This document shows, one piece after another, positions 9,002 through 26,007 of a stretch of DNA of 26,633 nucleotides (the first letter of the stretch is position 1; each line of letters begins with the position of its first letter). Under the pieces are notes generated by a model, which was not told the DNA's origin, did no database searches, and saw nothing but the letters and a program-made list of their open reading frames with translations. A program made the position numbers and the translations under genes. The stretch covers positions 1 through 26,633 of IMG/VR virus record IMGVR_UViG_3300046413_000604; one strand, given 5' to 3'. This DNA is from a virus.

Positions 9002-10060
9002 ATGATCGCTGTACTCGCAAGACCACAACAAAAAAATAATTGGCAGATTTTCTGCGACTGGGTGACGTCCACCAATAACCGTCTCTATGTCGGCTGGTTT
9101 GGAATCTTGATGATTCCTACTTTACTAGCCGCAACCATTTGTTTCATCATCGCATTCGTAGGAGCCCCACCAGTTGACATCGACGGGATACGTGAACCAG
9201 TTGCTGGATCGCTCCTTTACGGAAATAACATTATATCGGGAGCAGTTGTCCCGTCTAGCAATGCTATCGGACTCCACTTCTATCCCATCTGGGAAGCAGC
9301 AACCCTCGACGAATGGCTCTACAACGGAGGACCATTCCAACTCGTTGTCTTCCACTTTCTTATCGGTATCTACTCTTACCTGGGACGCGAATGGGAACTT
9401 AGCTACCGGCTAGGTATGCGTCCCTGGATCTTCGTTGCTTACTCAGCTCCGGTAGCTGCAGCAACAGCTGTCTTCTTGGTATACCCCTTTGGACAAGGTT
9501 CATTCTCAGATGCAATGCCACTTGGAATCTCTGGAACATTTAATTACATGTTTGTATTCCAGGCTGAGCATAATATTCTGATGCATCCTTTTCATATGCT
9601 TGGTGTTGCCGGTGTATTTGGCGGAAGCCTTTTCTCGGCAATGCACGGATCTCTTGTCACTAGCTCCTTGGTTAGAGAGACTACTGAAACTGTCTCCCAG
9701 AACCAAGGTTATAAGTTTGGACAAGAAGAAGAAACGTACAACATCGTAGCCGCCCATGGTTACTTTGGTCGATTGATCTTTCAATATGCATCGTTTAATA
9801 ACTCGCGTTCGCTTCACTTTTTCCTGGCTGCTTGGCCTGTGGTTGGGATTTGGTTTACTAGCCTTGGTGTTAGCACTATGGCTTTCAACCTTAACGGATT
9901 CAACTTTAATCAATCCATTGTCGATTCTCGGGATCATGTCATTCCTACTTGGTCTGATGTTCTCAATCGAGCAGGACTTGGAATGGAAGTAATGCATGAG
10001 CGTAATGCTCATAACTTTCCACTTGATTTGGCTACTTACAAAACTCCTACTATCGGATAA
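9002..10060 (+). CDS. psbA: Photosystem II D1 protein (PsbA), phage-encoded
   Basis: Full-length 352-aa D1, the fast-turning-over reaction-centre core protein. Its expression by the phage sustains photosystem II electron flow when host synthesis stops. Standard numbering holds throughout: Y161 (TyrZ), D170, E189, H190, H198, H215, H272, H332, E333, H337, D342 and A344 (mature C-terminus) are all present, so the Mn-cluster, quinone and chlorophyll ligands are intact. Residue 130 is Glu, the high-light D1:2 type. Only eight residues (TYKTPTIG) follow A344 as the CtpA-cleaved extension. The first 12 residues differ from host D1, and 231-235 reads VSQNQ where hosts usually have ESQNY. ATG 9002 directly follows a TAA with no Shine-Dalgarno. 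It lies between scaffold and capsid, as in known cyanopodoviruses. Confidence 0.98.
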
Positions 10061-12890: not shown

Positions 12891-15004
12891 TGGCAGCTGT
12901 TACTCAAACTGTACCTGACTTTTTAAAAGGGGTATCACGTAGGCCGGACCAAGATAAGGAACTTGGACATGTACGTGATGCTATTAATGTATATCCAGAC
13001 ATGACTTTTGGTATGTCTAAGCGTCCCGGTGTTTCATGGGTTGCTGATCTTGGTACACAAGCTGCGTACAATAATGCGTTCTGGTTTAAATTTGAACGTT
13101 CAGCTTCTGAAATTTATTTTGGAGCAATAGTTAATAATACTGTAAGCATATGGAACCTGAATACTGGTAGTGCTGTTACTGTCAATAATGCTACCAATGC
13201 TTATCTCAATGGTACACGTAATAGTTTTTCTGTTGCTCACCGTAAAGATCAGATGATCATTGTCAATAAGACAAAGGTAACAGCTACAACAGGTACTACG
13301 TCTGGATCACTAACTGGAACTGTTACAGCTGTTGGTGATCTACCAACTAGTCCTAATGCTAATGACCTCTACCATGTAACTAATACATTTATTGCAGAGG
13401 ACGATTACTATGTCATCTATCAAAATGGTGCTTGGCAAGAAACTGTAAAGCCTGGAATTGTTTTGGGACTCGATCCCACCACCATGCCATTGGAACTTAA
13501 GTTTAATACTAGTTCTAATAACTTTACCTTAAGCTCACCTTCCTATATAAATAGACTGACTGGAGACGATACTACTAATCCATTCCCAAGTTTTATTGGT
13601 AGTACTATCAATGAGGTCTTTTTTTATAATAACCGTCTTGGTTTCTTAAGTGATGATAACGTAATACTTTCTAGGGTACGTTCAGTATTTGATTTCTTTA
13701 GAGAGTCTGCTCTTACTTTGTCTGATGCAGATGTCATTGATCTCCTTACCACTAGTCAAAAACCTGTAGATCTTTTTGCAGTGATTCCACAGCAGCAGGG
13801 TTTGGTCCTATTTAGTAGGAGTGAGCAGTTTCTAATGTATACAGATGAAGGTGTGTTGACACCATCTAAAACTGTTATTAGGACAATTGCTAACTTTGAA
13901 ATGGACGTCAGTATTGACCCAGTTCAAATTGGTAAACAGATTATATTCACTGGTTCTGCTCCTACATATACTCGTGTGTTCTCTATGAACGTACAGGGTG
14001 ATCAGAGTAACTCCCTCTATGATGATATAGGTAAGGTTGTATCTGAATGGATTCCAACAGGATTAGACCGTCTTGTAGGTAGCTCTCAGAACTCATTCAT
14101 TGCATTGTCTGGACCTGGTTTAGATTATGTTTATCTCTTCCGCACATATGAGGAAGGTGAAAAAGTACTATTCAAGTCTTGGTTTAAATGGCAGCTACCA
14201 GGCCCAGTACAAGCCTTTGATACATCTCAAGATCAAGTTCAGGTTATATGTACAGTAGGCGGTCGTACGGTACTACTAAGAGGCTTTATAAGTCCTACTG
14301 CTGCTACTGCAACACTTACAACTGAAGACGGATTAGTAGTAGTTAACCCTTGTGTAGACATGCTGGCACAAGCATCTGCATTTGAACAGGTTCTATCAAG
14401 TGGTGTTACTAGCAATTATGTTGCTGTTCCTTTTTCACCGATTTTAGATGCTGACGGAAATCCTGATTTTACTAATGCAATTGTAATGCAAACCGATAGT
14501 TCTTCTGGATCTAGTTCAGGTGCATTCTTCCGCCCTTCTGAAATCGTTCAACGCACTATTAGTGGAAATTCTTATTGGACATTTAATGTTAAAAATGTAG
14601 ATCTATCGGCTTATAATACTGCGTCCACATTGTTTGTTGGATATACGTATTCTATGGATATGGATCTACCAAAGGTTTATTTTCGCAACGGTGATTCCGT
14701 AGATTATACAGCATCATTGATCATTAATAGACTTAAATATAGTTGTGGTAATACTGGAGCTATAAGCTTTTCTCTTCGAGAACGTGGAGAAACTAAATTC
14801 CTCACTGTTGGTGAAGTTGTCCAGTCTAACTATTATAAATTAGATTCCGTTCCTATTGATGATGAGCGTATATTTGATTTACCAGTACATATGAGGAATG
14901 ACGCCTTTGATATAAAGATTTCCTCTGATAGCCCCTACCCTGTATCTCTTCTTTCCATGTCATGGGAAGGTCAATATTCACCTAGATATTACAAACGAGC
15001 ATGA
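12890..15004 (+). CDS. Tail tubular protein B (nozzle), T7 gp12-like
   Basis: A 704-aa beta-propeller-type tail nozzle protein. It starts with the family signature MAAVTQTVPDFLKGVSRRPD, then GHVRDAINVYPDMTFGMSKRPG, and later FFYNNRLGFLSDDNVILSRVRSVFDFF and GLVLFSRSEQFLMYTDEGVLTPSKT, all typical of T7 gp12 (794 aa). Six copies form the tail tube tip to which fibres attach. It follows gp11 with a one-base overlap and an internal AGGAGG site. Its last codon region overlaps the next gene as ATGA. Confidence 0.95.
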   Translation: MAAVTQTVPDFLKGVSRRPDQDKELGHVRDAINVYPDMTFGMSKRPGVSWVADLGTQAAYNNAFWFKFERSASEIYFGAIVNNTVSIWNLNTGSAVTVNNATNAYLNGTRNSFSVAHRKDQMIIVNKTKVTATTGTTSGSLTGTVTAVGDLPTSPNANDLYHVTNTFIAEDDYYVIYQNGAWQETVKPGIVLGLDPTTMPLELKFNTSSNNFTLSSPSYINRLTGDDTTNPFPSFIGSTINEVFFYNNRLGFLSDDNVILSRVRSVFDFFRESALTLSDADVIDLLTTSQKPVDLFAVIPQQQGLVLFSRSEQFLMYTDEGVLTPSKTVIRTIANFEMDVSIDPVQIGKQIIFTGSAPTYTRVFSMNVQGDQSNSLYDDIGKVVSEWIPTGLDRLVGSSQNSFIALSGPGLDYVYLFRTYEEGEKVLFKSWFKWQLPGPVQAFDTSQDQVQVICTVGGRTVLLRGFISPTAATATLTTEDGLVVVNPCVDMLAQASAFEQVLSSGVTSNYVAVPFSPILDADGNPDFTNAIVMQTDSSSGSSSGAFFRPSEIVQRTISGNSYWTFNVKNVDLSAYNTASTLFVGYTYSMDMDLPKVYFRNGDSVDYTASLIINRLKYSCGNTGAISFSLRERGETKFLTVGEVVQSNYYKLDSVPIDDERIFDLPVHMRNDAFDIKISSDSPYPVSLLSMSWEGQYSPRYYKRA

Positions 15005-15507
15005 CCACACCAACTCAACGTGAAGTAATTCACAATAAAACAGCAGACATGATTAAACGTGCGGCTGGTGATAATGATGAAGCTTTTGATTATCTTGCTT
15101 TTATCTTCCAAGCCACACGTGTTATCGACGATGTTGTTGATAATGACAAGGAGATTAACCACAAGTCTTATTTTACTTGTATGGAAAATCTCTTTGTCAG
15201 GCTTCATACTAATAAGTTTTTTACTGCTAACTATGCAGCCCTCGTCTCTCAACATGTAACTATATGGAACACCTGGTTAGCTGCTAATCATGCAGAAGAA
15301 AAAGGAGACCTTATAGATAAAGTACATGCTAGAACTTGGCGTCTTTACATTGATGAATTACTACCGTTGGTTGCTTTACTTACACAAGGATACGAAAAAA
15401 TGAAGGAGTTAGACAACGACATCCGTGTCTTTACAGCTTTGTACCATCGCATGGATCCACCAGATTTTAATTTAGAGGAGGTTTTAGAAGATGTCAGGAG
15501 GAACTAA
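15001..15507 (+). CDS. Protein of unknown function in the gp13 position, 168 aa
   Basis: Not recognised. A 168-aa, mostly helical, soluble protein in the slot where T7 has gene 13, but with no visible similarity to T7 gp13. The segment FIFQATRVIDDVVDNDKEI (residues 34-52) contains D43-D44-x-x-D47, the aspartate pattern of isoprenoid synthases. The protein is far shorter than those enzymes and no second aspartate motif is evident. The start overlaps gp12 (ATGA), and the last 17 bases overlap the next gene. GAGGAGG within the codons near its C-terminus serves as that gene's Shine-Dalgarno. Confidence 0.75.
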   Translation: MTTPTQREVIHNKTADMIKRAAGDNDEAFDYLAFIFQATRVIDDVVDNDKEINHKSYFTCMENLFVRLHTNKFFTANYAALVSQHVTIWNTWLAANHAEEKGDLIDKVHARTWRLYIDELLPLVALLTQGYEKMKELDNDIRVFTALYHRMDPPDFNLEEVLEDVRRN

Positions 15508-17227
15508 TAGTAATATCAAAAGACAGAATAAGCAAATTGCAAAGCAATATAAGTATGATAAGAAGTTTAGAACGTATCAGCATGACACTAATATCGATAG
15601 GTACAAAGAGTCCCTATCTAAAGTTGAACTAGCTAGAGATCAGGAGAAATCAAATCGGAATTATAGAAATAAAACTCAAGGTCAACAGTTTAAATATCAA
15701 AAGGCCATTCAGGCTCAAGAGTATCAAGCACAAACAGAGGCTTTTGATAAATCTGAATCAATCTATAAAAAACAGATTGGTTTAAATAAAGAAGCTGCTG
15801 CTTTAACTCTGGAATCAGAACAGAATAAGTTAGACGAAGCTCTATTAGCAGCATCTTTTGATAAGAAAGATCTTGATATTGGACAACTTGAGAACAAAGC
15901 TACAGCAAAGTATGACAAAGAAGGTACTGCGATAAAGCGTACTGACGCTAACACTATGTCAACTCTTGACAAAAGCTCTGTTACCTCAGACCTTTCAGAA
16001 AAGATTGAAAAAAGCACAATTGATCAATCAAAATTAGAGTCTGTTTACTCACATGAGGGAAGGGCTTACACTATCCAACAAGCACAGATGGATCGTGAAA
16101 CAGCCAAGATTGGATCTACTGAAGGCTGGGGTCTTCAAGGTAATCAACTTGAGTTTCAGGAAGCCGCTGCAAAAAATCTTGCAAATAGAATTGATAACAG
16201 AGTTGAATTAATCCGTACTAAGGGTGCATTGATTGCACGTGGAGTAGAGGGTAATACAGCTACTGGTTTGGCTCAATCTGCACTAGCTGAATATGGCAGA
16301 AAACAAGCTGCCTCAGCACTGGACCTAATTTTTAGCTCGAAGCAGAAATCCCTTTCTGATGAAAAAGTCAAAGGGACTGCAACCTACAGTTCAGCTGATG
16401 TTGCATCTAAAAAATCCCTCTCTACTATTGGTAGGGAAAAGTCCACTGATATCCTTAAACTTGATAAATCTAAAATTTCTGTTGATACTAAGTTTGCAAA
16501 AGAAAAAGCTACTAACAAAACTAGTAAGCTTGATGCTGCTTTGAGTTCTACTTTAAAGCAATTGACTCTTAGTGATACTAAAACTGACTCGAAACTTGGA
16601 TTCCAGACTCAGCGTTATACACTTGGTAAGGAAAAGATTGTTGAGACAGAAAAGAGTGCTAAAAAAGCATTCAAACTGTCTAAGAAAAAATTAGAACTGG
16701 ATCAAAGGGGAGCTGACCTTAAAGCTTTTGGTCAGCAAATGATCAAACCGACTAAGCCGCCCAAAATACCTAGACCACTTAAACTGCCTAAAACTCTATT
16801 CATTGATCCAACTAAACCTAGGAAACCGCCTAAGCCTGTTAAAGGTGCACTTGGTAAGACTAGTGTTTGGAATACTGTCAGTGATGGTCTTGGTGCTCTG
16901 AGCCAGGTTGCATCTATTGCGGCCCCATTTGTGTCCGATATTAAAACCAAGCATACAGTTGAACCTATTGTAAATGCTTCAACCAAGCTATCTAATCTGA
17001 AGCCTGTCAGCTTCTACTACACACCTGAATATACTGCTGACCCTGATCGACTGCATCATGGTTTCGTAGCACAAGAATATAAGGAAGTTATGCCAGATGC
17101 TACATACGATCTTAAAGGTACTCTTGCCATTGATACTAATGACCTCATCGGTCTACTTGTCAAAGGTCATCAAGAACTTCAAGAACAAATTGTACAGCTG
17201 GAAAACAAACTCTCTGCAACTAATTAA
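15491..17227 (+). CDS. Internal virion protein (gp14-like) with C-terminal peptidase_S74 chaperone domain
   Basis: A 578-aa protein in the gp14 position. Residues ~1-130 and 220-410 are highly charged, Lys/Gln/Glu-rich coiled coil. Residues ~235-285 (NRVELIRTKGALIARGVEGNTATGLAQSALAEYGRKQAASALD, shortened) resemble the conserved core of phage internal virion protein B. A Pro/Lys-rich linker spans ~417-452. The last ~97 residues form an intramolecular chaperone auto-processing domain: S482-D483-IKTK at the cleavage site, LKPVSFYY, HHGFVAQEYKEVMPDA, a Leu-rich ending helix and a final coiled coil. In other phages this domain trimerises fibres and then cuts itself off at the Ser of SD. The start ATG 15491 has GAGGAGG nine bases upstream. 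Confidence 0.8.
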   Translation: MSGGTNSNIKRQNKQIAKQYKYDKKFRTYQHDTNIDRYKESLSKVELARDQEKSNRNYRNKTQGQQFKYQKAIQAQEYQAQTEAFDKSESIYKKQIGLNKEAAALTLESEQNKLDEALLAASFDKKDLDIGQLENKATAKYDKEGTAIKRTDANTMSTLDKSSVTSDLSEKIEKSTIDQSKLESVYSHEGRAYTIQQAQMDRETAKIGSTEGWGLQGNQLEFQEAAAKNLANRIDNRVELIRTKGALIARGVEGNTATGLAQSALAEYGRKQAASALDLIFSSKQKSLSDEKVKGTATYSSADVASKKSLSTIGREKSTDILKLDKSKISVDTKFAKEKATNKTSKLDAALSSTLKQLTLSDTKTDSKLGFQTQRYTLGKEKIVETEKSAKKAFKLSKKKLELDQRGADLKAFGQQMIKPTKPPKIPRPLKLPKTLFIDPTKPRKPPKPVKGALGKTSVWNTVSDGLGALSQVASIAAPFVSDIKTKHTVEPIVNASTKLSNLKPVSFYYTPEYTADPDRLHHGFVAQEYKEVMPDATYDLKGTLAIDTNDLIGLLVKGHQELQEQIVQLENKLSATN

Positions 17228-17244
17228 TTACACACCTTTGAGGT

Positions 17245-20025
17245 ATGGCCGAATTTAAAAGTAGTGCACGAAGAATAGCCTTCAACCCTATTACATTACC
17301 TGATACTGCATCCACCTACCTACGGGCGGAGGAAAAGCGTATAGATAAATTGAGAGAAGCGTATTCACGCGACATCGATAATAGGGAACAGTACGCTGAT
17401 GCACTAGAGAAAAAACAAGAAACTGAAAGACGTAATGTCGAGAGTAATTCTCAGCTTAAGAAACAATTTGATCAAACTTATACGAACGCATTACGTCAAC
17501 GTTATAACCAGATAAATCAAAAAGAAGCCGATAAAACCAGAGCTTATGAAAATAGGCTTAAGCAGATGTCTGAGTTTTCAAAGAAAGCTGGTGCTGAGTT
17601 AAAAGCTTTTGGTGAACGCCGTTCGGAAGAACAACAGAATATTGGTTTCAATATCTACAACGAGACTGGTGTAGACCCTGTACAGCTTCAGGAATTCCGT
17701 ATCAAAATGGCGGACCTCGAAGCTGAGGGTATTGCTGAGGAAGGTTATATAAACAGTCTTGAGGCTAAGGGTGTTGATGTTGCCGCTTTACGACGTGTAC
17801 AGGGTCTTAGTGGCTGGCGTCTCGTGGGTGCTCAAAAAGCCATGGCTAAGAACGCTGGAGCAGACTGGAAAGCATTTACTGAGAACCCTGAAAATAGAGA
17901 GAAAAAGTACGACATTGGTGATGGAACCATGTTGTCTCTTGAGGAAGCATTGAATGACCCGGACCCTAATCAGGCGCACTTCAATACAGTTCTAAGCGCT
18001 ATGCGTGCGGAATTTACTAAACCCTATTCTGATTTAAGCCCTGAATTTTCACATGAGCATTTTTGGCCTGGTGTCAATGGTGTTACTGAAACCTTGCAAT
18101 CTGAGTTCCATAGTAAGGATCAAGCTGCTTTCCGTGCAGCGCGTGCAGAAGGAGATATTAATCTTCTCACTACTACTTTTCTTGAAAGCGAAGGTGAAAT
18201 CGATTTATCTAATCTTCTCGAACATTATGGTGGTGGAACTCTTGGATATGATCGTCTTCATGTAGCTGTCAATAAGCTAATTGAGATCGGACGGTTTGGA
18301 GATAGGGAGCTTGAAGCTTTAAAAAATGCAACCATCTTTAAGGATGGAAAAGCAGTTAGTTATTTAGATGCTTTCTCTAAAGGTAAAGGTTCTACTAAGC
18401 ATCTTGCGTTCCTTAATACTGCAGCAAAAAATATTCATAACCAATCTGAAAATGTTAGGACGATGACTGAAGCACAGCTTGATGCTAGTGCCGAGTCAGC
18501 TGTCGAAAAGTTTGTTGCTACTGCTACTACTAGTGGTATTAGTCCTTCGCAGTATCAAAAATGGGAAGCAACTTATATCCAGACTTACAATAAGCAACCA
18601 CCAGCTTGGCTTAAGACATATGCAACCAATGAAACATATGGTGTAGCTGAAGCCGAAGCGATCCTTGAAGAGAAATGGAGAGATGGAACTTTAACTAGTG
18701 ACGTTCTCAAGATGAAAGCATATCAACAATTGCTTCCTGAACGTCGCCAGTACTACCAAACACTAGCAGGTATGTACGAAGAGCAAGCCAGCTCTGATCA
18801 GATAAAAGCACATGAAAAAGATATTAAGGGTCTTGTATCAAAAGCTTTAAAGATGTCTACCGTTGATGATATAAATGGAGAAGTAAATACTGTTGCTTTT
18901 CATATTACTCAGGATTATAAGAATCTTGTTCAACGAAACATTAGTAGTGGTGCATACTCATCAGCTGGTGAGGCTACTTCTGCAGCAATGGAACAGATTA
19001 GAAAAGAACTAGCTTTAGGAGCTGAAAAAGAAGGGCTTCCTTATTCTTTGAATCGGCTAGAAGATGGATCTTTGGATTTAAAAAATCCTGGCTTTGCAAT
19101 GATGAAATCGCTTTCCTCTCCTCATAAAGATACCGCCACATTAATTAAAGGATACGATAAGCAGTATGCGCTAGATAATGATGTAATCACTAAGAAACAA
19201 TTATTTGGAAGTATTGATGACTCGAATTCGCTTATTAGCCGTATCGATTCTGGCTATAGGAATGGTGGCTTCATCCCTGAAGCTATCAAAGACATAGCGG
19301 TGAAAGACAAAGATCGTAGTGTTTTAGATATTGTCAATAGTCAACTTGAGAAATACAACTTACCACTTATCAAAGCTTCTAGGGATCAAGCAGTTCAATA
19401 TGCAACTGATCCTGAGTTCCGACGTTTGATTACACACATGACTTCTGAAAGTCGTGTCTTTCGTGGTTTGACAAACACTAATTATAAAAACGGAGTTGTT
19501 GGTATTCCGGCGTACAAACCTATGTTGGATCTTATTGCCAGCAAGGAATCTGCTAACGACACTGAGTATGGTGGTTATGATTCGTTGAACACTGGCGGTG
19601 CTGACGGTGGTCACACAGCATTTGGTTCTAGTACTGGTACTAAAAAGTTCCAGACTCCATTAACTGAGATGACAGTAGAGGAAGTAATGAATCTCCAGAA
19701 TGATGGAGTTCTGCATGCTACTGGTCGATATCAAATTATCCGTTCAACACTGGCAAATGTTGTAAGCCAGGTTGGTCTTGATCCGAAAACAACAAAATAC
19801 GATGAAGCAACACAAGATCTACTAGCAATCCATTTGCTATGGGGGCGTGTTGGTAAACAACTTAGAACTGATGGTCAAGCATTAATTGGGCTTGGTCAAG
19901 AGTGGATTGGTCTGCAAAACGTTTCTTCTGAACGTAAAATTGCTGCACTTGAACTTATTAAATCAGATCCACGTTATAAGAACTTTGATTCAGTTCGCTT
20001 GTACCCGAACCTACTAGGTAAATAA
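17245..20025 (+). CDS. Internal virion protein (gp15-like) with C-terminal muramidase-like domain
   Basis: A 926-aa ejected internal core protein in the T7 gp15 position (747 aa in T7). Most of it is helical: a coiled coil spans residues ~25-120, and long helical repeats follow. From about residue 758 it changes to a compact lysozyme-like domain: LDLIASKESANDTEYGGYDSLNTGG (E768 as likely catalytic Glu), TEMTVEEVMNLQ, ATGRYQIIRSTL, and YDEATQDLLAIHLLWG. This pattern matches phage muralytic domains that open peptidoglycan so that internal proteins can form the ejection channel. In T7 the lytic domain is at the start of gp16 instead. It starts 17 bases after the preceding gene and overlaps gp16 by one base (TAATG). 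Confidence 0.8.
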   Translation: MAEFKSSARRIAFNPITLPDTASTYLRAEEKRIDKLREAYSRDIDNREQYADALEKKQETERRNVESNSQLKKQFDQTYTNALRQRYNQINQKEADKTRAYENRLKQMSEFSKKAGAELKAFGERRSEEQQNIGFNIYNETGVDPVQLQEFRIKMADLEAEGIAEEGYINSLEAKGVDVAALRRVQGLSGWRLVGAQKAMAKNAGADWKAFTENPENREKKYDIGDGTMLSLEEALNDPDPNQAHFNTVLSAMRAEFTKPYSDLSPEFSHEHFWPGVNGVTETLQSEFHSKDQAAFRAARAEGDINLLTTTFLESEGEIDLSNLLEHYGGGTLGYDRLHVAVNKLIEIGRFGDRELEALKNATIFKDGKAVSYLDAFSKGKGSTKHLAFLNTAAKNIHNQSENVRTMTEAQLDASAESAVEKFVATATTSGISPSQYQKWEATYIQTYNKQPPAWLKTYATNETYGVAEAEAILEEKWRDGTLTSDVLKMKAYQQLLPERRQYYQTLAGMYEEQASSDQIKAHEKDIKGLVSKALKMSTVDDINGEVNTVAFHITQDYKNLVQRNISSGAYSSAGEATSAAMEQIRKELALGAEKEGLPYSLNRLEDGSLDLKNPGFAMMKSLSSPHKDTATLIKGYDKQYALDNDVITKKQLFGSIDDSNSLISRIDSGYRNGGFIPEAIKDIAVKDKDRSVLDIVNSQLEKYNLPLIKASRDQAVQYATDPEFRRLITHMTSESRVFRGLTNTNYKNGVVGIPAYKPMLDLIASKESANDTEYGGYDSLNTGGADGGHTAFGSSTGTKKFQTPLTEMTVEEVMNLQNDGVLHATGRYQIIRSTLANVVSQVGLDPKTTKYDEATQDLLAIHLLWGRVGKQLRTDGQALIGLGQEWIGLQNVSSERKIAALELIKSDPRYKNFDSVRLYPNLLGK

Positions 20026-24187: not shown

Positions 24188-25279
24188 ATGGCTTGTAATC
24201 CAGTCGCAACCTACAACCAATATACAAGTAATGGTAGTACTACTACCTACAATTTCACTTTCCCATATCTAAAGACCTCAGACGTTCAAGTACAAGTAAT
24301 CGCTGACGATCCAGCCAGTGTGAACGATGTCATAACTGATCTGACGGTAACAACTCATTATTCTGTCTCATCATCAAACCCTACTCAGATTGTATTAACG
24401 TCTGCAGGTTTGACTATTGCGGCTAATGGATCAACAATTCGTATTTACAGATGTACAGCTAATCAGTTTCTTACGGCTGAATTCCAAGCTGGCTCTGCTA
24501 TCCGTGCTACTGACCTGAATACAAACTTTGATCAGGTTCTGTATACCACCCAGGAATCGAACGTTAGATCAACAGACGCAAATACTACAAGTAGAACAGC
24601 TGTTACGACCGCAGAAACCCTTGGTAACCAAGCTATTGCTACGTCTAACTCTGCAGTTACTACAGCTAACTCTGCAGTTACTACAGCCAATAGTGCTGTT
24701 ACTACGGCTAACGGTGCTGTTAATACAGCTAACTCTGCGGCTAGTGCAGTTGCCAGTGCCGTTCTTTATGACCCAATAACTAACGTTGCATCTATTCCAG
24801 GGTCGCCTAGTAATAATACTTATGTAGAGGTTAGTAACTCTACTGGTATTGAATCATTCAATCCCCTTTCTGGACTTCCATCTGGGTTTGTTGGTGACTC
24901 AGGTTTAACAGTACGTCTTAGGTATCAAACAAATACCTGGGTTTGGCAGATGTATTTTGCCAATGATGTGAACGATCGGTTCATTAAAAAAACTGGTGAT
25001 ACTTTTACTGGATTGGTAACTCTTTCTGGAGCACCAACCTCTAATTTACATGCAGCTACAAAAGCTTATGTAGACACTACTTCTGGTAATGCACTGCCAC
25101 TTGCCGGTGGAACTATGACAGGTCTTCTTACATTGTCAGGAGCGCCAACATCTAATTTACATGCAGCTACAAAGCTTTACGTAGATTCCAATGCAATCCT
25201 TGTAGCTGACGGCGGCAACTTTGACAGTGGAGCATCACTTGTCACATCATCATCAACATTCGACGGAGGATCATTCTAA
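24188..25279 (+). CDS. Tail fibre protein with T7 gp17-type N-terminal domain
   Basis: A 363-aa fibre protein. The first ~125 residues are the T7 tail-fibre attachment domain: YNFTFPYLKTSDVQVQVI, then IRIYRCTANQFLTAEFQAGSAIRATDLNTNFDQ (shortened), which docks to the tail tubes. Residues ~154-188 are heptads of the form SAVTTAN, a short triple-helical coiled coil. A beta-rich segment follows, then two 27-residue repeats, GDTFTGLVTLSGAPTSNLHAATKAYVD-like (written in part), as found in many phage fibres. It ends in a Gly/Ser-rich tip, GGNFDSGASLVTSS. The stop overlaps the next fibre gene (TAATG). The distal adhesin role is probably shared with the next two genes. Confidence 0.9.
   Translation: MACNPVATYNQYTSNGSTTTYNFTFPYLKTSDVQVQVIADDPASVNDVITDLTVTTHYSVSSSNPTQIVLTSAGLTIAANGSTIRIYRCTANQFLTAEFQAGSAIRATDLNTNFDQVLYTTQESNVRSTDANTTSRTAVTTAETLGNQAIATSNSAVTTANSAVTTANSAVTTANGAVNTANSAASAVASAVLYDPITNVASIPGSPSNNTYVEVSNSTGIESFNPLSGLPSGFVGDSGLTVRLRYQTNTWVWQMYFANDVNDRFIKKTGDTFTGLVTLSGAPTSNLHAATKAYVDTTSGNALPLAGGTMTGLLTLSGAPTSNLHAATKLYVDSNAILVADGGNFDSGASLVTSSSTFDGGSF
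24647..24730 (+). repeat. Four 21-bp tandem repeats coding the fibre coiled coil
   Basis: Units of 21 bp start at 24647, 24668, 24689 and 24710, and a degenerate fifth follows at 24731. Units 1 and 2 differ by one base; later units diverge mainly at third codon positions. Each encodes one heptad such as NSAVTTA. Slippage between units could change the length of the fibre shaft. Confidence 0.8.
24995..25186 (+). repeat. Two 81-bp fibre repeats
   Basis: Copies at 24995-25075 and 25106-25186 encode nearly the same 27 residues. They share the core TLSGAPTSNLHAATK and end in YVD. A 30-base spacer coding TTSGNALPLA lies between them. The modules are of the kind exchanged between phage fibre genes by recombination. 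Confidence 0.75.
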
Positions 25280-26007
25280 TGCCAACACCTGCTAATCGGA
25301 CTCCTCTGCGTGTAGCACGAGGTACATATTCAAATCTTAATAGCTCAGTAGCTGATATTCAGGAAGGAGAGGTTTGTTATGCAACTGACCAAAACAAACT
25401 ATATGTCAAGGAAGGATCAGCCCTTGTAAGTACACAGGCTGCTGCTGTTGATATTTCAACTAAAGCAAATATTGCTGGACCTACTTTCACTGGAGTACCA
25501 GCAGCTCCTACAGCAACCAGTGGTACTAATACAACTCAATTAGCTACAACAGCGTTTGTAACTGCTGCTGTCCCTGATATCAGTGGTAAAGCCAACACGT
25601 CAGACATTGGTTCTACTATTCAAGCCTTTGATGCTGACACTGCAAAGACAGATACAGCACAGACGTTTACCAAGGCACAACGTGGACAGGTGACGACACT
25701 TACGTCTGCTGCTTCTATCACTATTGACTTTGCACTGTCTAATAATTTCTTGTTAACCACAGGACATGCAGCAATTCTGTTTGCTAATCCCACCACAGAA
25801 GTAGCTGGTCAAAGTGGTTCTATTTTTATTGTTCAAGGTTCTACTACTTGTGCTGCTCCTACTTGGGGTAACCAATGGTACTTTGCTGGCGGTACTGCTC
25901 CAGCTCTAACAGGTACAACTGGTAAATGTGCACGTGTTGATTATATTGTTCAAGAAGCTGGAAAGATCCATGCAGTAGCTACAGATAACCTAACGTACAC
26001 GTCTTGA
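25279..26007 (+). CDS. Tail fibre-like protein, 242 aa
   Basis: A second fibre component. The N-terminal segment TPLRVARGTYSNLNSSVADIQEGEVCYATDQNKLYVKEG (residues ~8-46, shortened) is a small beta-rich head that I associate with phage tail-fibre and appendage proteins. Residues ~65-98 hold two fibre-type repeats (GPTFTGVPAAPTATSGTNTTQLATTAFV) as in shaft segments. The C-terminal half (SAASITIDFALSNNFLLTTGHAAILFANP ... GNQWYFAGGTAP) is a beta-structured tip. It begins within the stop codon of the previous fibre gene and ends three bases before the next. No catalytic motif is visible. Confidence 0.8.
   Translation: MPTPANRTPLRVARGTYSNLNSSVADIQEGEVCYATDQNKLYVKEGSALVSTQAAAVDISTKANIAGPTFTGVPAAPTATSGTNTTQLATTAFVTAAVPDISGKANTSDIGSTIQAFDADTAKTDTAQTFTKAQRGQVTTLTSAASITIDFALSNNFLLTTGHAAILFANPTTEVAGQSGSIFIVQGSTTCAAPTWGNQWYFAGGTAPALTGTTGKCARVDYIVQEAGKIHAVATDNLTYTS

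Follow-up and report, generated by a model that had tools for sequence, protein, structure and literature searches.

The window analysed here – the whole 26,633-nt stretch, corresponding to IMG/VR record IMGVR_UViG_3300046413_000604 – carries an ejection cassette in the order gp12, small gene, gp14, gp15, gp16 and fibre (Table 1), an arrangement comparable to that of S-TIP37 and also to those of S-CBP4 and S-CBP3, where the small gene is missing. A photosystem II D1 (psbA) gene at 9002–10060, recognised by eye from its translation, marks the phage as a cyanophage. The gp14-like position assigned to the 578-residue protein by the first-pass annotation is real, and it is the C-terminal end of this protein that concerns us most. 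Among its neighbours, the 168-aa gene shows a sub-threshold match to thymidylate synthase (17.4 bits versus 24.3), which is probably due to chance. In the gp15-slot protein, residues 750–905 (19492–19959) are 40% identical to cyanomyovirus proteins annotated as endolysin/lysozyme murein, with no Pfam match in this stretch; a cell-wall-cutting domain on gp15 instead of gp16 would differ from the T7 arrangement. In the fibre region (24188–26007), a 363-aa protein that has the T7 fibre N-terminal domain precedes one of 242 aa that matches Mtd_N weakly, below the cut-off; neither carries an S74 domain.

Table 1. The gp14-slot gene, its parts and its neighbours, numbered along the window
Feature	Position	Strand	Basis
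168-aa gene between gp12 and the gp14-slot gene	15001–15507	+	phrog_21390, E 4.5e-12; syntenic with S-TIP37 gp36, annotated as internal virion protein
gp14-slot protein, 578 aa: helical body, Pro/Lys linker, hydrophobic tail, S74 domain	15491–17227	+	ORF; phrog_20153, E 5.9e-29; gp14-slot alignments
Long helix 1, residues 6–208	15506–16114	+	AlphaFold2, pLDDT about 76–95 at residues 11–180, lower beyond
Long helix 2, residues 301–414	16391–16732	+	AlphaFold2, pLDDT at least 89 at residues 331–420, low at 301–320
Pro/Lys linker, residues 416–453 (KPxxPPKPxKG), common to S74-less gp14-slot proteins	16736–16849	+	Alignment A7, several invariant prolines
Hydrophobic stretch ahead of S74, residues 454–481	16850–16933	+	Maximum 19-residue hydropathy 1.21; matches C-terminal ends of S74-less gp14-slot proteins, L153 included
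Predicted scissile bond, Val481–Ser482	16931–16936	+	PF13884 start; equivalent of the endoNF S911 and MyRF S587 cuts (PMC8326128)
Peptidase_S74 / intramolecular chaperone domain, residues 482–578	16934–17224	+	PF13884; model matches 7dc3, 3gw6, 3gud
Lys487, predicted catalytic lysine (Ser +5)	16949–16951	+	Equivalent of K916/K592; lysine conserved without exception in the 25 aligned relatives
S74 C-terminal helix, residues 549–577 (in MyRF a trimerising coiled coil, PMC8326128)	17135–17221	+	Both AlphaFold2 models
gp15-slot protein, 926 aa	17245–20025	+	phrog_24152; similar S-TIP37 and S-CBP4 genes in the equivalent place
gp16-type internal virion protein, 1386 aa	20025–24185	+	phrog_6651 internal virion protein, E 4.3e-224

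The C-terminal end of the 578-aa protein is confirmed as a Peptidase_S74 domain. Residues 482–537 match positions 1–56 of the 58-position Pfam profile PF13884 with an E-value of 5.2e-12 and 46.3 bits, against a curated cut-off of 22 bits, and a record-wide search returns 16934–17104 (50 bits) as the sole S74 match of the whole 26.6-kb record. The first-pass annotation had proposed such a domain from the letters, and the profile check bears it out: the Ser482–Asp483 pair, the LKPVSFYY motif and GFVAQEYKEVMPDA are all present, although the feature had been started at 16920, 14 bases ahead of codon 16934, where the domain begins. Ser482 and Lys487, five residues apart, form an intact catalytic pair that aligns with those of endosialidase NF (endoNF; S911/K916) and MyRF (S587/K592) (PMC8326128; PMC3742443), and the Asp and Lys columns are invariant in all 25 rows of alignment A5.

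Structural modelling points in the same direction. In an AlphaFold2 model of residues 439–578, built on 27 sequences, the S74 part reaches pLDDT values of 83–92 from about residue 489 and ends in the long C-terminal helix, and the region upstream has block means of at most 52. A Foldseek search of the PDB places MyRF (7dc3) at the top (E 1.5e-5), followed by endoNF (3gw6), the GA-1 neck appendage (3gud) and the T5 fibre (4uw8); the three 7dc3 chains are the only ones to pass an E-value of 0.001, and the TM-scores are modest (0.54–0.57 for these) because the part upstream of S74 is unfolded in the model. The window domain shares with endosialidase NF and the other phage S74 domains (3gw6, 3gud, 4uw8) its fold, Ser–Lys pair, C-terminal position and predicted cut before the serine. 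The endosialidase NF-type domain, however, follows the triple β-helix of a fibre or spike, whereas that of the window follows the hydrophobic stretch of a helical gp14-type protein: neither AlphaFold2 model contains a strand of a β-helical stalk upstream of S74 (where confidence is low), hydrophobic sequence standing in its place, and none of the 28 residues before the predicted cut corresponds to R897, the arginine of the endoNF stalk. The best structural match, the ICA domain of MyRF, likewise sits on a non-fibre protein, whose N-terminal part is freed by a cut that is described as independent of such stalk help (PMC8326128); unlike the window protein, MyRF is a eukaryotic membrane transcription factor, and it still has a β-helical stalk.

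The body of the protein belongs with the ejection proteins. The long helical region seen at first pass is borne out by the full-length AlphaFold2 model, which predicts two long helices (residues 6–208 and 301–414) with shorter, less certain ones in between. The Pro/Lys linker said to precede S74 is also real (about residues 416–453), but a hydrophobic stretch (454–481) intervenes between the two; it is moderately hydrophobic (maximum 1.21) and the only one in the protein, with none at the N-terminus. In alignments, the body is 30–32% identical to gp14-slot proteins of cyanopodoviruses, e.g. S-CBP3 and S-SRP01. All 18 members of alignment set A7 match phrog_20153 and 16 of them phrog_15746 (‘internal virion protein’), the window protein's own match to the latter being weak (E 0.0027), and the DSL-LC07 homologue of one member (L106) is annotated as internal virion protein gp14. 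Searched against PDB sequences, the family gives no direct match up to an E-value of 1. T7 gp14, cyanopodovirus gp14 and P22 gp7 resemble the window protein in gene position, helical body, near-C-terminal hydrophobic stretch and family matches; the T7, P-SSP7 and P22 versions differ in having no S74 domain and in being about 200–230 aa long, within the 181–240 aa given for gp14-type first ejection proteins (PMC8954989). At 578 aa, or 481 without S74, the window protein falls outside that range, and the gp14-slot proteins found here span 189–609 aa.

Given this homology, the gp15- and gp16-type genes that come next and the presence of a separate fibre gene, the 578-aa protein is best read, from sequence and model, as a gp14-type first ejection protein and not as a fibre. 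One of the two options offered at first pass, a fibre-like component encoded out of place, is not supported by homology, model or gene order. That the protein is nevertheless a fibre- or spike-like component of the virion surface, encoded within the ejection cluster, is very improbable. Such a role would fit the usual occurrence of S74 on tail fibres, and some S74 proteins in the ejection slot are annotated as tailspikes in GenBank; against it stand the homology of the body to gp14-slot proteins, the gene order, the all-helical model without a β stalk, the absence of any Pfam match to a fibre N-terminal, β-rich shaft or receptor-binding domain in the 578-aa protein, and a separate fibre gene (24188–25279) that carries the T7 tail-fibre N-terminal domain (Pfam).

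Relatives without the domain show what the protein looks like otherwise. A scan with the gp16 family yielded 80 contigs, 50 of them with an assignable gp14-slot gene, and all 50 of these proteins have a hydrophobic stretch near the end – ahead of S74 in the eight that carry one, as discussed below – with maximum 19-residue hydropathies of 0.65–1.80. Within the window's own gp14-slot family, S74 is present in one of 26 loci, on the contig of L006, the window's closest relative, and absent from the other 25, several of which are near-identical. Scans for close relatives with gp16 and gp12 returned only the L006 contig and L128, whose contig ends before the S74 position, and a scan of genome contigs returned three metagenome-assembled contigs; this exact architecture occurs in two records only, the window and L006. 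Among the 50 is L153, an S74-less protein 34% identical to the window body, which has the linker end and the tail in common with it (LGKTSVWN...DGL...QV.S.A.PFV) and whose TAA stop falls exactly at the predicted cut: the L153 protein ends in PFV, and in the window PFV is followed, across the predicted scissile bond, by SDIK. The three forward frames after the L153 stop contain no S74 remnant, and the gp15 start codon lies 16 bases past it. A cut at the predicted bond would thus leave the window protein with the usual terminus of a gp14.

In a quick 22-row tree of gp15, which has several long branches, the window and L006 form one clade (support 100) within a 98-supported group that also includes L153 and S-TIP37. 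As no other row has S74, a single gain suffices, and parsimony places it on the branch of these two. Comparison of the two also reveals how differently the parts of the gene have evolved. Between the window and L006, purifying selection has acted on the S74 domain (pS 0.27, pN 0.036, pN/pS about 0.13, identity 93%), and the hydrophobic stretch has a similar pS of about 0.27; the helical body, by contrast, is saturated, with a pS of about 0.6–0.8 in most windows of the comparison and identity down to 25%. The 3′ part of the upstream gene has a pS of 0.05–0.18. The saturated block spans 15521–16810, with far less diverged flanks on both sides, and looks like a cassette that was exchanged or diverges fast; inside gp15 there is another block of strong divergence (18781–19200, residues about 513–652, identity down to 37%). 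A saturated body between conserved flanks implies that the body was exchanged or diversified while S74 was kept by purifying selection, though its low pS may in part stem from recombination. It is hard to see the domain as a recently acquired passenger without function: the restriction of S74 to two records of this gp14 family and the gain on their branch in the gp15 tree would suit such a history, but the low pN/pS, the full catalytic pair, the contrast with a body diverged to saturation and the independent recurrence of S74 in other lineages make it a far-fetched one.

The 80 gp16 contigs contain 18 S74 ORFs: 11 lie in the fibre region, downstream of gp16, and seven in the gp14 slot, upstream of it; a profile built from the gp14-slot S74 tails added L182, so that eight of the 50 gp14-slot proteins have an S74-like tail (L177, L181, L182, L183, L185, L188, L196 and L197, of which L181, L183 and L188 are near-copies). 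Tested with Pfam – all eight but L182 – six of the seven tails score above the cut-off and L177 just under it (20.6 versus 22). Ser and Lys are kept in all eight, as is a hydrophobic stretch before the serine, and only 71–75 aa separate the serine from the end, so the C-terminal helix is absent. L196 and L197 are P-SSP7-type gp14 proteins (phrog_19322, which also matches the 200-aa protein of L198), and the end of phrog_4287, a 392-aa PHROGs family named ‘DNA ejection protein’, matches these S74 tails.

Cultured phages extend the pattern. From the matches of Tblastn searches with L196 and L185, 14 regions were picked by hand for inspection, and in 12 of them the ejection cassette opens with the S74 gene: H6/1, Vibrio 199E37-1, pCB2047-C, RHph_Y1_10, Mae-JY35, PAE2, DB virus 2, AH02, RHph_I3_18, EBPR podovirus 2, phiGT1 and phiM5. 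The call is based on position and gene sizes for Mae-JY35, PAE2 and RHph_I3_18, and on position and a following cell-wall hydrolase for pCB2047-C, DB virus 2 and EBPR podovirus 2. The other two regions, MW202675 and CRP-3, were not counted; in MW202675 (L222:5173–8730), an S74-like stretch lies within a 1185-aa protein annotated as internal virion protein D. In most of the 12, a Gly/Ala-rich stretch precedes the S74 serine (maximum hydropathy from 0.18 in DB virus 2 to 1.27, eight measured), and the tails are mostly short (64–79 aa in the eight measured). The phiM5 protein is noted as detected in the particle proteome, and in Pseudoalteromonas virus H6/1 the S74 domain on an ejection protein (gp17) is already annotated. 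H6/1 gp17, phiGT1_17, RHph_Y1_10 EVB56_081 and phrog_4287 are thus like the window protein in having a C-terminal S74 on the first cassette gene, mostly after a Gly/Ala-rich hydrophobic stretch; their domains differ in mostly lacking the C-terminal helix, and the likeness established here is one of tail and cassette position. The S74 protein of S-CBP42 was taken, by its length, as the 354-aa fibre gene gp22, and a structure search of viral proteins returned many S74 proteins, mostly fibres or without a name. The statement that S74 normally sits on tail fibres or spikes therefore holds for most cases but is too narrow, as the domain recurs on ejection proteins and had been annotated there before. 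Judged from sequence, these add-ons on the first ejection proteins of several short-tailed phages suggest a shared way of maturing the injection machine. As most of the other tails are short and have no trimerising helix, trimers cannot be assumed for them, and it is doubtful that they trimerise at all.

The closest kin of the window's domain lie elsewhere. A scan with the S74 alignment retained 80 of 107 loci (one of them, L018, being the L006 contig), and among the other retained loci the sequences closest to the window's, at 34–54% identity, belong to small proteins (L019–L050). These are 213–240 aa long where the start of S74 is present, as it is not in L045 and L050, with two exceptions in size: L037, truncated at the edge of its contig (165 aa), and L026, with another upstream frame (146 aa). 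Like the window protein, they have a full-length domain preceded by a hydrophobic stretch – the 25 residues before S74 have a mean hydropathy of +0.71 in the 31 parsed rows of L018–L050, and of −0.35 in 18 parsed rows from the 47 loci L051–L097, mostly classical fibres – but they are much smaller, at about 215–240 aa, and come from another type of phage. In a 65-row S74 tree (built without L058 and L017, which had no anchor), the window and L006 fall inside this helix-S74 group (28 rows, 91/85; inner fork 92/84; neither fork starred), and a cultured-phage fibre (L016) lies outside it; since the rows were chosen by similarity, the tree speaks of kinship and not of frequency. A first joint alignment of gp14-slot and small S74 proteins (A4) did not align the two groups properly and was left out of the folding input.

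The small helical S74 genes (e.g. L039:7647–8327, L021:7632–8354 and L048:7668–8321) come from uncultured marine phages and sit among small genes upstream of a terminase gene, several neighbours resembling related short helical proteins. For L039, eight of ten neighbours have no PHROG match at an E-value of 0.05 and the other two weak ones; a PF07068 search of the small-S74 phages gave no match, and neither did its controls. Of eight such records tested, three also carry S74 on proteins of 722–952 aa, so the small protein is not their sole S74 protein.

The parsed rows of L018–L050 have Ser as nucleophile in 28 cases and Cys in three, the small proteins L031, L047 and L048. The latter bear on the idea that S74 is never cut from the window protein and remains in the core for good, serving in oligomerisation or docking: cleavage there is, after all, a prediction from sequence, and the replacement of Ser by Cys may mean that some of these proteins can do without the usual cut. 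Yet Cys is itself a plausible nucleophile, Ser and Lys are kept in the window, L006 and all eight other gp14-slot proteins, and L153 and other relatives manage without any S74. We therefore regard a permanently attached domain as improbable, if less so than a passenger or a surface fibre.

On balance, and with somewhat better than even confidence, we favour a gp14-type first ejection protein with a removable C-terminal S74 chaperone and autoprotease, whose cut would leave an ordinary gp14 end. After translation, the S74 domains would bring chains together, most likely as trimers; this association would order the hydrophobic C-terminal tail and neighbouring helices and keep the tail inactive before assembly. 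Once the chains were correctly associated, Ser482, with Lys487, would cut the Val481–Ser482 bond, the S74 fragment would depart, and gp14, now with an ordinary C-terminus, would join the core alongside gp15 and gp16, to be ejected later. This reading corresponds to the better of the two options raised at first pass, in which an internal protein bears a trimerising chaperone that can be removed. The intact Ser–Lys pair, purifying selection, the L153 protein ending at the predicted cut and the recurrence on other podovirus first ejection proteins favour it; cleavage, trimerisation, location inside the head and the reason for removal are the parts that we infer.

What is known of model phages offers both encouragement and caution. 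T7 gp14 is described as the first protein out, insoluble alone, held by gp15 in the core and forming a hexameric pore (PMC8954989); the mature core contains eight copies of it, the ejected channel six (PMC11784390). P22 gp7, present at ~12 copies per virion, loses 20 N-terminal residues to a host protease before assembly (PMC4992974), which would provide, by analogy, a precedent for the processing of an ejection protein. Since three divides six and twelve but not eight, trimers could occur as intermediates of assembly without necessarily being the final arrangement. The eight copies in the T7 core, indivisible by trimers though six are observed after ejection, would nonetheless count by analogy against the proposal, as would the upstream β stalk that solved S74 proteins have and that neither model shows here; short tails without the trimerising helix may work differently or not trimerise.

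It could instead be the cut, rather than trimerisation, that matters, with S74 capping the membrane-active C-terminal tail of gp14 and being shed like a propeptide to arm the protein. The window protein, the eight gp14-slot proteins and most of the 12 cultured phages have S74 immediately behind a hydrophobic stretch, which speaks for such a cap, as do the short forms, which keep Ser and Lys in the absence of the trimerising helix, and the insolubility of isolated T7 gp14, held in the core by gp15 (PMC8954989). However, activation of known S74 domains depends on trimer formation (PMC8326128) and the window domain keeps its C-terminal helix, so that the cap and trimer roles may be combined; a cap alone we consider unlikely. 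The removable chaperone also allows a wider and more tentative reading, which is possible but which we would not yet back: that S74 is a recurrent, independently acquired maturation checkpoint of the podovirus first ejection protein, restraining its membrane-active tail and cutting itself off only once the protein is correctly oligomerised.

Neither the S74 domain nor gp14 proteins are new, and S74 had already been annotated here and there on ejection proteins. No discussion of S74 on ejection proteins was found in the open-licence literature, judged mostly by titles and abstracts: the accessible parts of the phiGT1 paper do not mention the domain, those of PMC3909814 place S74 on the tail fibre only, and those of PMC10783043, PMC4099482 and PMC13299392 contain nothing relevant to the subject. 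As far as these searches tell, three things are new: a cyanopodovirus gp14 that carries a full-length S74, a relative whose end coincides with the predicted cut, and the repeated occurrence of the domain on first ejection proteins. They bear on the assembly of ejection proteins in the head, in copy numbers unlike the portal's, and on the avoidance of premature membrane insertion. If the checkpoint reading is true, only competent parts of the ejectosome would be built in. Recognising a self-removing S74 on first ejection proteins, those of the cultured phages phiGT1, phiM5 and H6/1 among them, would also correct the tailspike annotations that some of these proteins now bear.
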